Positions 419 to 7,737 of a stretch of 7,737 nt of DNA are shown in pieces. The translations under genes were made by a program, and so were the position numbers. The first letter of the stretch is position 1, and each line of letters begins with the position of its first letter. Source of the DNA: Hydrogenothermaceae bacterium. Its GTDB lineage: Bacteria > Aquificota > Aquificae > Hydrogenothermales > Hydrogenothermaceae. Under the pieces are notes generated by a model. The model was not told the DNA's origin, did no database searches, and saw only the letters and a program-made list of their open reading frames with translations. The stretch spans positions 1 to 7,737 of the forward strand of contig JALSSE010000401.1 of NCBI GenBank assembly GCA_026984415.1. The letters are read 5' to 3'.

Positions 419-964
419 TTGATAGAAAAATTAAGAGAACTGATTAAAGAAAGGGCATTAAAAATATCAGATAAACCAATATTTAAACTTTCATCTGGAC
501 AGATGAGTACTTATTATATGGATTTAAGAACAATAACTTTAGACCCTGAAGGTGGATATATTATTGGGAATGTAGTATTCAATATGATTAAAGACAAAAA
601 TCCTAACGCTGTAGGTGGATTAACATTAGGTGCTGACCCTATATCTTACGCTACTTCAATGATTTCATATTTAAATAAAAAACCAATAAAACCATTTATA
701 GTGAGAAAAGAACCAAAAGGACACGGAACAGGAAAGCAGATTGAAGGAAATGTAAATCCTGGAGAAAAAGTTTTTATTGTAGAAGATGTAGTAACAACTG
801 CAGGTTCTTCTCTTAAAGCTGCTAAAGTTGCTAAAGATTTTGGATTAGAAATTTTAGGAATAATTGCCATAGTTGATAGGGAAGAAGGTGGAGAAGAAAA
901 TATTAAAAAAGCAGGATTTGAATTTTTTCCAATTTTTAAAATTTCTGAATTTCTCAATAAGTAG
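419..964 (+). CDS. pyrE: Orotate phosphoribosyltransferase
   Basis: Makes orotidine 5'-monophosphate from orotate and PRPP in the fifth step of de novo UMP synthesis, in the cytoplasm. With the TTG start the protein has 181 residues, a little shorter than the roughly 200 usual for the family. Visible motifs are an N-terminal helix (LIEKLRELIKERAL), the substrate-contact strand FKLSSGQMSTYYMDLR at about residues 24-37, the flexible catalytic loop VRKEPKGHGTGK at about 95-106 with its conserved Lys and His, and the PRPP-binding signature VFIVEDVVTTAGSS at about 118-131 with the acidic pair ED. Opening at the in-frame ATG at 371 would add 16 residues translated from carB and is not supported; AGGAGG at 407-412 points to TTG 419. 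The gene is 13 bases behind carB, so the two are probably co-transcribed and share pyrimidine control upstream. Its last 11 bases overlap the 3' end of the opposing ccsA-like gene. Family identity is secure. Confidence 0.95.
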   Translation: MIEKLRELIKERALKISDKPIFKLSSGQMSTYYMDLRTITLDPEGGYIIGNVVFNMIKDKNPNAVGGLTLGADPISYATSMISYLNKKPIKPFIVRKEPKGHGTGKQIEGNVNPGEKVFIVEDVVTTAGSSLKAAKVAKDFGLEILGIIAIVDREEGGEENIKKAGFEFFPIFKISEFLNK

Positions 965-1748
965 GATGTTTTATAAACCAATAGACAATAAGGGCAAGTA
1001 TGCTAATACCAATTGTTAGATAGCTAACTTCTCTGCCCTTTTCATGTCTGACTATTCTAAAATGGATAATACCACCATAAAAAATCCATAAAATAGATAA
1101 AAATACCTGTTTTGGGTCCCAAATCCAGTGTTTTCCTAAATAAACACTTGACCAGATTGAAGAAAAGATTAATGCTAAACTGACAGATATAAAAACAAGA
1201 ACCAAAATTTTATCTTCTAAATCCTGAAGTGTTTTTAAAGAGGATGAAAATTTAGAAACAAAAATAGAATTTAACTTTTTATTTTTTAAATCTCTTTCTG
1301 TAAGTATATATATTGATGAAACCATAACTAAAGCTATAATCAGTGCGTATGACAGCATCGCAAAAAATACATGGAGGTAAAACCATATATTGTTGTAAGG
1401 TTCTATATTTTGTGAATAGTTTGGAAGGGATAAAGCTATTAAAAAAACAATAATAGGTGAATAAACAGCTCCGAAATCTTTTAACTGTTTTTTATAAAGT
1501 GTCAGCCCATAAAATATCATTGCCAAAATTGTTGAAAGTAAAAACAGAATATCTTCCTGATGGACAATAGGAATTGTTCCATTTTTTATTGAAACTACCA
1601 CTAAATAAAAAATCTGAATTAAAAAACCTATTCCAAAAAAACTAAATCCTAAAGTTTTTCCTGTTTTCTTTTTTGTAAAAAGGTTTATCCAAAAACTAAT
1701 TGATGCTATAAAATAAGACATTAATGACAATATAATAAATGCCTTCAA
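954..1748 (-). CDS. Cytochrome c assembly / HemX-like integral membrane protein (CcsA family)
   Basis: A very hydrophobic 264-residue protein with about eight predicted membrane helices (roughly residues 3-24, 31-53, 66-85, 93-109, 122-149, 179-201, 212-230 and 241-260). The key signature is HWIWDPKQ at residues 207-214, followed by LSILWIFYGGIIHFR, a recognisable version of the tryptophan-rich haem-handling segment (W-x-WDPKE...LxxWLxYxxYLHxR) of CcsA/HemX proteins. Possible axial haem histidines are H126 (FYLHVFFAMLSYA) and H229 (IIHFR). In the family such proteins move or present haem for cytochrome c maturation (System II) or, as HemX, act with glutamyl-tRNA reductase. No ccsB or hemA neighbour is present, so the choice between CcsA and HemX stays open. 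The usual Glu after WDPK is Gln here. Start is TTG at 1748-1746, fixed by AAGGTG eight bases upstream; the next candidate, Met10, would cut into helix 1. It overlaps pyrE tail-to-tail and is divergent from nth. Confidence 0.85.
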   Translation of the reverse strand: MKAFIILSLMSYFIASISFWINLFTKKKTGKTLGFSFFGIGFLIQIFYLVVVSIKNGTIPIVHQEDILFLLSTILAMIFYGLTLYKKQLKDFGAVYSPIIVFLIALSLPNYSQNIEPYNNIWFYLHVFFAMLSYALIIALVMVSSIYILTERDLKNKKLNSIFVSKFSSSLKTLQDLEDKILVLVFISVSLALIFSSIWSSVYLGKHWIWDPKQVFLSILWIFYGGIIHFRIVRHEKGREVSYLTIGISILALIVYWFIKHPTY

Positions 1749-2730: not shown

Positions 2731-5151
2731 TTATTGTTCCGTTTCTTCTTTTATTTTTAACTTTATAGATTTAACTATTTTATCTCCCTCTATTTTTAGC
2801 ACAGGGTCTCCCATTGCTGTTCTTTTAGAAATTGGAATTCTTTTAGCATCTACTGTAAGTTTTAATAATCTTCCCATTTCTGTTGAAATTAATAATCTAT
2901 CCATAAGATTTACAGCATGGACTGAAACAAGATAATCATCTTTATTTAATTTTATTGCCATTAATCCCTTTTGGGCTCTTTTTTTAAACTTCTTTTCTTT
3001 GTCTTTTTTATAAAATTCTTCCTTTGGAACAAGTTTACTATAACCATTAGCTGTAATTGTAATAAGGTAATCCTCTTCATTCACAAGTAATCCGCCAGAA
3101 ACTTCATCTCCTTCGTCTAAATCAATTGCTTCAACACCTTTTGCCTTATCAGATGTAACCCTTACCTGACTTCTATCAAATATAAGTAAATCTCCTTTCT
3201 TTGTATAAACTCCAATGTATGAAGGGTGGTCATCTGCAAATGCTGAAATAACTTCATCTCCTTCAGATAAAGGAATAAGGGTATGTTTCTGAGATTTAAA
3301 GAATATGTCGTAATCTGAAATTCTTTTGATTATTCCATTTTTAGTTAATATAAACAGTCTATCTTCATTTCCTTCACCTTTGTAAATAGTCCCTACTATT
3401 TCTTCCCCTTCTTTAATATCAATGTTTCCTATATCTTTTGGTAAATCAGCAGTAAGACTCCAGTAAGAATTACCTTTATTTGTTATAAATGCTATTGGTG
3501 TTGAACTTTTTATCTGCTGTATTGATATTAATTTTTCACCGGGAACCATAATATTTGTTATTTCTGTAATTACCTTTTGCATTAATTCTTCATTTTTTAT
3601 ATTTTCTTCTAAATCTATTTTGTGATTTATCAATCTTCCACTGCTTAAAACAGCAATAACATGTTCTTCTTCAAAAGTTAGTTCCTGTTCCTTTCCAGAA
3701 ATAACAATTGTTTTTCTTTCATCTTTGTATTTTTCTAAAAGTTCATCAATTTCAGATATAAAAACTTTTATTTTTTCTTCTTCACTTGAAAGTATTTTTT
3801 GATAACCAACTATCTTTTCTTTTAGATTTTCTAATTCTTCATATAGCTTTTCGCTTTCTAATGCTGTAAATCTTGATAACCTCATTTCAAGGATTGCAGT
3901 TGCCTGTTCTTCTGATAATTCAAAATTATCTTTTAAAGAGATTTTTGCTTCCCCTGTATCTTTAGAACCTCTGACTATTTCAATAACCCTATCAGCATTT
4001 TCTAATGCTTTTAATAAACCTTCTACTATATGAGACCTTCTTTCTGCTTTTTCAAGTTCAAAAAGTGTTCTTCTTGTTATAATCTCAATTCTGTGCTTGA
4101 TAAACTCCCATAAAATTCCTTTTAAATCTAAAACTTTAGGTTGCTTATTAACCAGTACAGTTAAATTAATAGGTATGCTCTTTTGAAGAGATGTTCTTCT
4201 GTAAAGTTTCTTTAAAACTTTTTCAGGATTAGCTTCCCTTTTAAGTTCAACAATAATTCTTATTCCATCTCTGTCAGATTCATCTCTTAAATCAGATATT
4301 CCTTTTTCCTGTCCTTTTCTAACAAGCTCAGCAATCCTTTTAATCAATTCAACTTTATTTACCTGATATGGAATTTCATAAATTATTATCCTGTTTCTAT
4401 TTCCAGGCAGCTGCTCAATTCTTGCCTTTCCTTTTACTACAACAGAACCACGGGCATTTTTATAAATATCAACTATTTCTTCGTGGGGAGTTATTAAAAT
4501 TCCACCTGTTGGAAAATCAGGACCTTTTATAAACTGACAAAGTTCATCAACTGTTGCATTTGGAAATTCTGCAAGATATTTTAAAGCTTCGGCAACTTCT
4601 GTAAAGTTATGGGGTGGTATGTTTGTTGATAAACCAACTGCTATACCAGATGCTCCATTACATATAAGGTTAGGAAATTTAGAAGGTAAGACTGTAGGCT
4701 CTTCTAAAGATGCATCAAAGTTTGGAGCCATATCAACAGTATTTTTATCAAGGTCAGCAAGCATTTCAACGGCAAGTTTTGAAAGTCTTGCCTCTGTATA
4801 TCTCATTGCAGCCTGTGGGTCACCATCAATTGAACCAAAATTACCCTGACCCTGTATTAGTGGGTATCTTAATGTAAAATCCTGTGCCATTCTTACAAGT
4901 GCATCGTAAACAGATGTATCACCATGGGGATGATATTTACCTAATGTTTCCCCAACAATTCTTGCAGATTTTTTATATGGTTTATTTGGATAAAGTCCAA
5001 GTTCTGACATTGCATATAAAATTCTTCTTTGAACAGGTTTAAGACCATCTCTTACATCTGGAATTGCCCTTCCAACAATTACAGACATTGCATAGTCTAA
5101 ATATGCAGATTTTACTTCTTCTTCAATTGGCTGTTGGATAATTTCTGACAT
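2731..5151 (-). CDS. gyrA: DNA gyrase/topoisomerase IIA subunit A lacking a canonical GyrA box
   Basis: The DNA-breaking and rejoining subunit of a type IIA topoisomerase, partner of GyrB (not in the window). It has 806 residues; B. subtilis GyrA has about 820, E. coli 875. The winged-helix/tower region (about 30-480) shows [21 protein letters not shown], the [15 protein letters not shown] recognition helix (T80 and D84 at the positions of E. coli Ser83 and Asp87), [23 protein letters not shown] with active-site R117-Y118, and the [18 protein letters not shown] segment. A Lys/Glu-rich coiled coil occupies roughly 430-480. From about 490 the beta-pinwheel that wraps DNA begins. Its first blade has [14 protein letters not shown] (513-526) where gyrases carry Q-R/K-R-G-G-K-G; the GyrA box is absent. 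KKRAQKG at 723-729 lies in a later blade, matching SRATKG of E. coli. There is no long acidic tail. AGGAG lies eight bases before the ATG. Naming it gyrA follows the N-terminal similarity; the activity may be topoisomerase IV-like. Confidence 0.95.
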
Positions 5152-5290: not shown

Positions 5291-7737
5291 ATGAGAATAT
5301 TCAGACAGTCTCTTTATTTTCTCCTTGTCCTTCTTACTTCAATTTACATTGCAGGTTGTAGCGGTGGTGGTAGTTCTTCCACAGAAACTGTTAATTTCAC
5401 AGCCAACGTAGAAAATGGAGATGGAGCTCAAATTGAAGTTATGTCTTATAATGCTGATGGTTCAAAGGAAAGGGATTCTAAACAAAGTACTATCTCAGGA
5501 AATTCTTACTCAACAACCCTAAAATTAGATAAAAAAGGTGGATATGTTTTAGTAAACATTACAAAAGATGGATATGTTGACTGGAGTAAAAAGGTCAACT
5601 TTGATACTCCAGATGATATAACTGTAAATGCAGTTTTAGAGCCAATACAGTCCCAATCTATAATTCCAGTTGAAGATACTGTTACAATAAGCTCAGCAGG
5701 AAAAAAAGTTATTAAAATAGCATTAATCAAAAGAGCAAACGGTAAAAAAGTAATTGCAGCAGGAAATAAAATAATAGCAATGGATGGAACTCCTGAGTTT
5801 ACAATGGAAATCCCAAAAGATGCTATACCTTCAGATGTTAAAGCATTAAAAGTTGGTTTAAGTTCTTTTGACCCAATAAAAGATGCAGATAAATTCCCTG
5901 GTGATTATGTTGATGAAAATGGAAACAGACTTATCTCTTTAGGTTTTAACTTTGTAGATATTAAAGATGCTGAAACGGGAAATCCTGTTTTTGGTGAAGG
6001 ACAAATATCAAAAACACAAGAGCAAACATACCGCATAACAAGATGGATTGGAAGTGAAGTATGTAATAAGTTACAGGGAGATTTTTGTACTGGTGGAGCT
6101 GATGACCCACAAATTTGTAGTAATCTTACTCAAGATGAAGTAAATGGCTACAATGTACCATTTTACAGATATAACGAAATCACTGGAACATGGGAACTTC
6201 TTGGTGTAGGAACTATAGATATAAACAACGATGGAGTTATAGATTCTAATGATGCTGTAAACAGCTCATTTGATGCTGTAGCTGTATGTACAGATAATGA
6301 TGGATTTAACACTATAATTGTTATAACTAATCCAAACTTTAGATACTGTAATCTTGACTATCCAGTAGTTATTCCACCAACTGAGTTATGTATTGATAAA
6401 ACATTTGTAGATACAAATAATCAACCATTTACACAGGTTTTAGCATGGTTGGAAGATGATGATGAAAACCAGAGTTTCTTATATTCTGCTCCAGGAATAG
6501 TTGGACAAGATGGAACTGTTAGACTAACAACATGGAATATTGAAGGAGATGGAGATACACAGGCTAAACTTTACTACCAGTACACGTTAAATACTGGAAA
6601 TGAATCAATTTTAATTACAAAAGAAGAAATTGTAGACTTAGAAACTGCTCCAAACTGCACACAAAAAACAAATACAATTGACCTTACAGAAAAACCATGT
6701 AAAGTTCAGGGAACAGTAAAATATTCAGATAACAGTGATGCTTCAAATGTTTCATTGTTTATAACAGATGACGACACATTTTTTAGATATACTACAACAG
6801 ATGAAAATGGAAACTTTGAAGCTGTAGTTCCATGTGAGAAAGAACTTTATGTATATTCCCTTTCAATTTATGAAAATATTGCTACTTTTAAAGCAGATGG
6901 AACTGTAAATGATGATGAAACAAGCGATGAAGCTCAATCCCAAGATAGTAACTATAAATACATTATTACATTAAATCAAATAACACTACCTAAACCACAA
7001 TACTCTTTATTTGTTTATAAAGAAGGAAATGGAACTGTAACAAGTAATCCTTCTGGTATTAGTTGTGGAAATGACTGCACAGAGAATTATGACAGTGGAA
7101 CAACAGTTACACTAACAGCAACACCTGCTACAGGCTATCTTATAGACAGTTGGACTGGTTGTGATAATGTTTCAACAGATAAAACAACCTGTACTGTAAA
7201 AATGAACAGCTACAGAATTGTTTCTGTTAAGTTTGTGTCTGAAACAAGGTATACTCTAAATGTTACAGTTAGCGGAAATGGATATGTAATGAGCAATCCT
7301 ACAGGAATACACTGTGTTGAAAACGGTAATATGTGTTCTTCAGAATTTGATGAAAATCAAACCATAACTTTAACAGCTTATCCAGATAATGGCTATCAGT
7401 TATCTCAATGGGGTGGAGACTGTTCTTCATGTGGTAATAACTTAACATGTGAAGTTGTATTAGATTCTAATAAACAGTGCTCAGCAGAATTTGTACAGGT
7501 TTCTGTTTCAGTTGATATGACTGGTGTATGGGAAGGAATATATGAGGGAAATGACGGAAGAAAAGGTTCTATTTGCGTAGATTTACAGCAGTCAGGAGGA
7601 AATCTAAGTGGAGAACTTTACCTACAAGGAACAGGATATGCTGGAAGTGTGACTGGTACCGTAAATAATAATTCTTTTACCTTTGGTACAGCAGCAGGAG
7701 GCAGTTATGAAGGACAGGTAAATGGTAATAATGCTTC
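5291..7737 (+). CDS. Large multidomain cysteine-rich surface lipoprotein (3' end beyond window)
   Basis: The frame runs from ATG 5291 to the window's end without a stop: 815 residues and still open. MRIFRQSLYFLLVLLTSIYI is a lipoprotein signal peptide and AGC ends it, with lipidation expected at C23; Ser at +2 fits outer-membrane sorting. After a Gly/Ser linker come a beta-rich domain (about 33-117), a region with EIPKDAIP and FDPIKDADKFPGDYV (about 120-235), a region with VPFYRYNEITGTWELLG and an EF-hand-type loop DINNDGVIDSND (310-321), a carboxypeptidase-regulatory-like segment (470 to about 535, with TTDENGNFEAVVPC), two divergent InlB B-type repeats (571-649, 654-734), and a partial beta domain from TGVWEGIYEG (about 744). 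Twenty cysteines follow C23, none before residue 258, suggesting disulfides in the exported protein. No enzyme motif is visible. It resembles adhesin or surface-scaffold lipoproteins, but its function is unknown. Codon use matches its neighbours. Confidence 0.88.
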   Translation, partial: MRIFRQSLYFLLVLLTSIYIAGCSGGGSSSTETVNFTANVENGDGAQIEVMSYNADGSKERDSKQSTISGNSYSTTLKLDKKGGYVLVNITKDGYVDWSKKVNFDTPDDITVNAVLEPIQSQSIIPVEDTVTISSAGKKVIKIALIKRANGKKVIAAGNKIIAMDGTPEFTMEIPKDAIPSDVKALKVGLSSFDPIKDADKFPGDYVDENGNRLISLGFNFVDIKDAETGNPVFGEGQISKTQEQTYRITRWIGSEVCNKLQGDFCTGGADDPQICSNLTQDEVNGYNVPFYRYNEITGTWELLGVGTIDINNDGVIDSNDAVNSSFDAVAVCTDNDGFNTIIVITNPNFRYCNLDYPVVIPPTELCIDKTFVDTNNQPFTQVLAWLEDDDENQSFLYSAPGIVGQDGTVRLTTWNIEGDGDTQAKLYYQYTLNTGNESILITKEEIVDLETAPNCTQKTNTIDLTEKPCKVQGTVKYSDNSDASNVSLFITDDDTFFRYTTTDENGNFEAVVPCEKELYVYSLSIYENIATFKADGTVNDDETSDEAQSQDSNYKYIITLNQITLPKPQYSLFVYKEGNGTVTSNPSGISCGNDCTENYDSGTTVTLTATPATGYLIDSWTGCDNVSTDKTTCTVKMNSYRIVSVKFVSETRYTLNVTVSGNGYVMSNPTGIHCVENGNMCSSEFDENQTITLTAYPDNGYQLSQWGGDCSSCGNNLTCEVVLDSNKQCSAEFVQVSVSVDMTGVWEGIYEGNDGRKGSICVDLQQSGGNLSGELYLQGTGYAGSVTGTVNNNSFTFGTAAGGSYEGQVNGNNA
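6218..6253 (+). other. EF-hand/dockerin-type calcium-binding loop in the lipoprotein
   Basis: Encodes DINNDGVIDSND, residues 310-321. Asp/Asn occupy loop positions 1, 3, 5, 9 and 12, Gly position 6 and Ile position 8, which is the canonical 12-residue calcium loop pattern. A single copy is visible with no clear flanking helices, so it is more like the calcium loops of bacterial surface proteins than a full EF-hand pair. Confidence 0.6.
7001..7237 (+). repeat. Divergent InlB B-repeat-like domain, copy 1 (lipoprotein residues 571-649)
   Basis: Coding repeat. The pattern is Y-x-L-x-V, GNGTVTSNPSGISCGNDC, a central VTLTATPATGYLIDSW and a closing strand VSVKFV. This is the GxGxVxSxPxGIxC...LTAxPxxGYxxxxWxG...VxxxF signature of the divergent InlB B-repeat family, common in secreted bacterial proteins. 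It has four cysteines (SC, DC, GC, TC), likely two disulfides. Confidence 0.75.
7250..7492 (+). repeat. Divergent InlB B-repeat-like domain, copy 2 (lipoprotein residues 654-734)
   Basis: Coding repeat, parallel to copy 1 after a five-residue joint: GNGYVMSNPTGIHC, then ITLTAYPDNGYQLSQWGG, ending in CSAEF. It keeps the four cysteine positions of copy 1 roughly and adds a C-x2-C pair (DCSSC) and a cysteine before the last strand, six in all. The DNA of the two copies has clearly diverged, so the duplication is old or each copy was acquired separately. Confidence 0.75.

Follow-up and report, generated by a model that had tools for sequence, protein, structure and literature searches.

The 7,737-nucleotide window analyzed here (positions 1 to 7,737 of contig JALSSE010000401.1, assembly GCA_026984415.1, from a Hydrogenothermaceae bacterium of the phylum Aquificota) carries pyrE, a ccsB-like gene, nth, and gyrA, together with two partial genes: the 3' portion of one resembling carB (a label read from the sequence) and the beginning of one for a lipoprotein-like protein. 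The subject of this study is the gyrA-like gene on the minus strand (2731..5151), a complete open reading frame without an intein that encodes the 806-residue A subunit of a type IIA topoisomerase and that lacks the GyrA box in the first blade of its C-terminal pinwheel domain (CTD; residues 485-806, 2734..3699, minus strand). The product matched the Pfam families PF00521 and PF03989 with 541 and 62 bits, respectively, and its DNA-cleavage site, Arg117-Tyr118 (RYTE; 4792..4803, minus strand), was intact and aligned with AAMRYTE of E. coli GyrA. The catalytic role of this Arg-Tyr pair in DNA cleavage by GyrA is established.

The absence of the box from blade 1 was confirmed. When the protein was aligned with E. 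coli GyrA and ParC (MAFFT, 159 rows in total), the GyrA-box columns read NEELMQK in the window protein versus QRRGGKG in E. coli, with no box-like motif, and a second alignment of 21 rows agreed; both bear out the sequence-only reading, which had seen no box among residues 513-531. That reading had assigned these residues to 3574..3615, a span that covers residues 513-526 only; the full 19-residue segment occupies 3559..3615 on the minus strand. Its description of the replacement as acidic was correct, the net charge being -4 in the window and ranging from -4 to +1, with negative values in 32/34, across the Hydrogenothermaceae genomes. In the CTD model (AlphaFold2 with 20 relatives; mean pLDDT of 88.3, pTM of 0.87), DSSP assigned a predicted 15-residue alpha-helix (residues 520-534, model residues 36-50; 3550..3594, minus strand) to the position of the box loop, followed by the usual blade strands, and model confidence dropped to a mean of 68 in the ten-residue block that contains the loop and the helix start. 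Because by-eye alignment of blade-1 loops between gyrases is hard, the missing box might be an alignment or sequencing error, but we regard this as highly improbable: the reading frame is open, the same state recurs in many separate genomes, and the model has a helix at that place. An alignment artifact was rejected on the ground that the same alignment recovered the box in 20/20 sister-clade genomes, and the genome counts given below also make chance an unlikely cause. A box displaced to another blade was likewise rejected, for the candidate found, KRAQKGL in blade 5, is the normal blade-5 loop (SRATKGV in E. coli).

The loss extended to blade 2, where the loop was shortened (residues 568-584; 3400..3450, minus strand) and the E. 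coli blade-2 box TRGARGR had no counterpart, 6 of its 7 columns being gapped. Blades 3 to 6, in contrast to blades 1 and 2, retained box-like loops, all on the minus strand: FKSQKHT (3280..3300) and SDKAKGV (3133..3153), both with basic residues retained; the strongly basic KRAQKGL (2962..2982), which is conserved in Hydrogenothermaceae and corresponds to the R766 loop of E. coli (PMC7038939); and KRTAMGD (2806..2826). In E. coli, the loops with the strongest positive charge are those of blades 1 and 2, and the blade-1 box is described as "absolutely required" for supercoiling (PMC11626157). DNA is described as contacting blade 3 first, passing over blades 4, 5, and 6, and exiting at blade 1, where the box is likened to a clamp (PMC6821735). 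An alternative explanation, that the enzyme still supercoils by way of a weak or re-routed wrap, would have the box replaced in function by the helix itself or by the basic loops on blades 3-6, with blade 5 foremost. The loops of blades 4, 5, and 6 contain lysines and arginines and are for the most part conserved in Hydrogenothermaceae, the blade-1 replacement segment is similar across the family and not decayed, and the blade-5 box of M. tuberculosis matters for both supercoiling and decatenation (PMC7038939). However, supercoiling is reported to be abolished when only the box of blade 1 is removed or mutated (PMC6821735), and this enzyme combines a predominantly negative replacement segment with loss of the blade-2 loop as well; we consider continued supercoiling unlikely.

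Profile scores placed the protein below both NCBIfam gyrA equivalog cut-offs (819 versus 877 and 830 versus 902 bits), which were missed by 5/5 Hydrogenothermaceae members tested and reached by one box-bearing control, P0076. It scored above the cut-off of subfamily NF004044 (758 bits; cut-off of 654) and below all three parC equivalog cut-offs (649, 601, and 535 versus 813, 1475, and 629 bits, respectively). The net charge of the CTD did not discriminate: it was -6 in the window and -17 in E. coli GyrA, with medians of +12 in the Desulfurobacteriaceae-like and 0 in the Aquificaceae-like members. E. coli GyrA has a long acidic tail. By sequence, the closest CTD was that of Aquifex aeolicus, followed by E. 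coli GyrA (1.8e-18), and the topoisomerase IV CTD 1wp5 ranked 12th of 13 (2.3e-14). The A. aeolicus CTD was also the closest fold to the model, with E. coli ParC a much poorer fit. It weighs against the explanation we favor, descent from a gyrase with loss of supercoiling, that 1wp5 and the ParC model 9a68 fitted the CTD model no worse than gyrases did, the six-bladed pinwheel found in the window GyrA being common to 1wp5 also. Because fold does not separate gyrases from a 1wp5-type topoisomerase IV CTD, our confidence in the favored explanation is slightly lower, and that in a ParC origin slightly higher, than it would otherwise be. That GyrA was replaced by an acquired true ParC, or that a gyrase body received a transplanted topoisomerase IV CTD, is nonetheless very improbable in our judgment, given the missed parC cut-offs, the tree of the GyrA body described below, and the CTD fold and sequence matches.

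In overall organization the protein resembles canonical GyrA (E. coli and Desulfurobacteriaceae-like Aquificota) in domain order, catalytic Arg-Tyr pair, and pinwheel CTD, and differs from it in the missing blade-1 box, the missing basic blade-2 loop, and the low gyrA equivalog scores; it shares the lack of a GyrA box with topoisomerase IV ParC, but not the parC-level scores. The sequence-only reading had likened it to A. aeolicus, an interpretation that was supported in part, both enzymes having a gyrase-like body and a pinwheel CTD without a box (PDB 3no0 for A. aeolicus). The box-less A. aeolicus type IIA enzyme (Tretter, Lerman and Berger, 2010) reportedly behaves as a topoisomerase IV. 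There were differences, however: in G042, which we take to be A. aeolicus VF5, the blade-1 segment is deleted, whereas Hydrogenothermaceae have the predicted 15-residue helix there, and blades 4-6 of G042 (TPGARGV in blade 4, NRGVKGT in blade 5, and a gap in blade 6) are poorer in basic residues than those of the Hydrogenothermaceae. The A. aeolicus enzyme has elsewhere been called a chimera of GyrB and ParC (PMC11302465).

The box-less state was surveyed in 136 Aquificota genomes, one per species, with a PF00521 match in 126 and a readable blade 1 in 120; the other 16 had no gene found, a contig end, or a frame-broken copy (G014). Hydrogenothermaceae were a predefined family group of 41 genomes, and the other group labels came from search order and the tree. 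Loci duplicating a genome were counted once, and four loci with no CTD anchor (L024, L027, L029, and L030) were dropped before counting. With the box defined as Q-x-R-x-G at those columns, blade 1 was box-less in 100/120 genomes and box-bearing in 20/120. All readable Hydrogenothermaceae (34/34), Aquificaceae-like genomes (58/58, from a total of 64), and members of the small clade G106-G112 (6/6, from a total of 7) were box-less, as were both G113 and G114. The box was present in 20/20 readable genomes of the 22-member Desulfurobacteriaceae-like clade G115-G136, reading QGRSGTG in 16, and in 12/12 chosen outgroup GyrAs in the same alignment. The box of L022 reads QARGGVG. The outgroup was picked after the first alignment was seen; L023, L025, and L026 (box-less, 32-38% identity, from other phyla, and possibly ParC) and L017 and L021 (box-bearing near-copies) were left out of it. 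The genomes surveyed include Sulfurihydrogenibium sp. YO3AOP1 (G036), Hydrogenothermus marinus (G016), and Persephonella atlantica (G022) from the Hydrogenothermaceae, to which G034, presumably S. azorense, can be added; in the box-bearing clade, we take G123 and G133 to be Desulfurobacterium thermolithotrophum and Thermovibrio ammonificans, respectively. Since most of these Aquificota genomes are box-less, the Aquifex case of 2010 looks like the rule for the lineage. Among the matches listed from open-licence PMC literature there was no earlier report of box loss across the Aquificota clade, although the 2010 paper may itself mention more Aquificales, and the passages considered from PMC5872134, PMC12903076, PMC7203096, and PMC11508158 say nothing of a missing GyrA box.

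The history of the loss was examined in a tree of the GyrA body (56 rows from a thinned set of 87, 351 columns, re-rooted, with two long outgroup rows and G076 left out), in which the window GyrA was sister to G002 (support of 100/99). G113-G114 grouped with the box-bearing clade (98/89), and Hydrogenothermaceae grouped (100/99) with a pair formed by the G106 clade and the Aquificaceae-like genomes (86/64). This best tree requires two changes of box state, but a single box-less clade was not rejected (p-AU of 0.0775). The two box-less genomes that group with the box-bearing clade, G113 and G114 (loci L126 and L117), are a possible second loss. In an initial FastTree, for which E. coli ParC and later E. 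coli GyrA served as the root, ParC was placed next to the G113/box-bearing group (0.55); because of this placement it was omitted from later trees. With the box present in the outgroup GyrAs chosen, an ancestral box followed by loss is the simplest reading.

The search for parC and reverse gyrase that the sequence-only reading had proposed for the host was run in its relatives, where the matches were consistent with a single GyrA/ParC-type gene per genome and reverse gyrase was common. All places with a PF00521 match were covered in the 36/41 Hydrogenothermaceae genomes that have one; each genome fits one GyrA/ParC-type gene, and no second such gene was found in these 36. Additional PF00521 pieces are explained by inteins, contig ends, or broken frames, with the gene frame-broken in G014 and present in part only in G012, G018, and G037. 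Across the phylum, PF00521 matches down to 7.6e-31 were considered, and multi-piece genomes outside the family were interpreted, on inspection of part of their pieces, as having a gene split by inteins or contig ends; when second matches were re-checked, those of G094, G095, G096, and G098 were sub-threshold only, among the matches listed. G066 carries an additional N-terminal GyrA-type fragment (C1:317421-317876; PF00521 positions 1-152 in a 201-residue frame), separate from its full gene. Many Aquificota gyrA genes (L001-L013, L028, and members of the genome set) are interrupted at the catalytic tyrosine, PF00521 position ~92, by an intein with recognizable intein domains, and a second near PF00521 position 41 is apparently present in some. 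The GyrA of G034 and that of G036 are intein-free. GyrB was matched in 128/136 Aquificota genomes, above the cut-off in 109, and occupied a single place in 12/13 genomes re-checked, the other (G010) having two contig pieces.

Reverse gyrase exceeded its cut-off in 123/136 Aquificota genomes, and all members of the wider phylum Aquithermota on the trees of PMC7203096 are stated to have it. In the clade closest to the window (G002, G006, G010, and G011) it was above the cut-off in three and in pieces in G010. It was also above the cut-off in 19/22 genomes of the box-bearing clade (below it in G122, G127, and G129), so that possession of reverse gyrase does not by itself account for loss of the box. 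G074, which we take to be Hydrogenobaculum Y04AAS1, is box-less. In the region of reverse gyrase, its contig of 1,559,514 bp keeps collinearity with G071 (loci L153 and L152, respectively) save for 2,988 bp missing inside the gene. What remains is a pseudogene, with remnants containing stop codons and an N-terminal zinc-finger stump that is a 45-residue frame with a stop, and no other reverse gyrase was seen in G074. The draft genomes G072 and G020 had a type IA topoisomerase and weak helicase-like matches only, with no zf_Rg match. Judged from their gene content, these three organisms may lack any supercoil-introducing topoisomerase.

Taken together, it is likely that the window gene encodes a box-less, gyrase-descended enzyme that relaxes and decatenates DNA in the manner of topoisomerase IV and does not introduce negative supercoils. 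The sequence-only reading had proposed such an enzyme; the absent box, the predicted helix and fold, the CTD closest to that of A. aeolicus, and the lone type IIA enzyme of its relatives support it, while we infer the loss of supercoiling, the DNA path, and the in vivo role. The type IIA topoisomerase to which the protein would contribute the A subunit is probably the only one in the host; the protein itself would be a gyrase by descent, with a gyrase body and a six-bladed CTD nearest that of Aquifex, presumably partnered with GyrB. Its blade-1 box would have been lost in an ancestor of the Aquificales/Hydrogenothermaceae lineage, and in Hydrogenothermaceae the short conserved segment with its predicted helix would have taken the box position, the blade-2 loop being shortened too. 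The basic loops on blades 3-6 may still touch and bend DNA, but the enzyme would lack the clamp by which the chiral wrap is closed and the T-segment presented in cis, so that the wrap would stay open and T-segments would be captured in trans or at existing crossings. The expected activities are ATP-driven decatenation and relaxation of positive and, more slowly, negative supercoils, with no introduction of negative supercoils, as suggested by box-mutant studies and the A. aeolicus precedent. Deleting the box or replacing it with alanines abolished negative supercoiling (PMC6821735), and mutants without the wrapping feature still relaxed DNA, positive supercoils ~2-fold faster (PMC10342825).

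The contigs closest to the window belong to metagenome-assembled genomes labelled Persephonella, Hydrogenothermus, Hydrogenothermaceae, or Aquificota, with best-segment identities of 63-84% (longer loci L001-L013, L024, and L028). Among the neighboring genes, the CcsB-like cytochrome c assembly protein (954-1748, minus strand) scored 83.5 bits, well short of the NCBIfam cut-off of 187.6. The lipoprotein-like protein (5291-7735, plus strand), in which reading of the sequence showed a hydrophobic start followed by CSGGGS, runs off the window. It contains two stretches of divergent InlB B-repeat (PF18998) and gave weak matches to PEGA and carboxypeptidase-regulatory domains.

The GyrA box is regarded as the defining feature of gyrases, and DNA gyrase has been described as ubiquitous in bacteria in a survey that eliminated GyrA sequences without the box (PMC9348778); a survey that filters in this way discards box-less enzymes such as these. 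The box-less Aquifex case was already known, and the new observations here are the predicted helix in place of the box, the shortened blade-2 loop, the spread of the box-less state through the clade, and a genome with neither a box nor an intact reverse gyrase. We put forward only tentatively the broader possibility that gyrase-type negative supercoiling was abandoned throughout the Aquificales/Hydrogenothermaceae lineage while the box-bearing sister clade kept the motif, that Hydrogenothermaceae are an intermediate, with a conserved helix for the clamp, half of the wrapping surface still basic, and an enzyme that may recognize positive crossings without wrapping, and that some box-less members (G074 and probably G020) have no supercoil-introducing topoisomerase. 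The 100 box-less genomes beside a box-bearing clade constitute a natural experiment in which a gyrase turns topoisomerase IV-like, and the lineage makes it possible to ask whether a bacterium can do without supercoil-introducing enzymes altogether.
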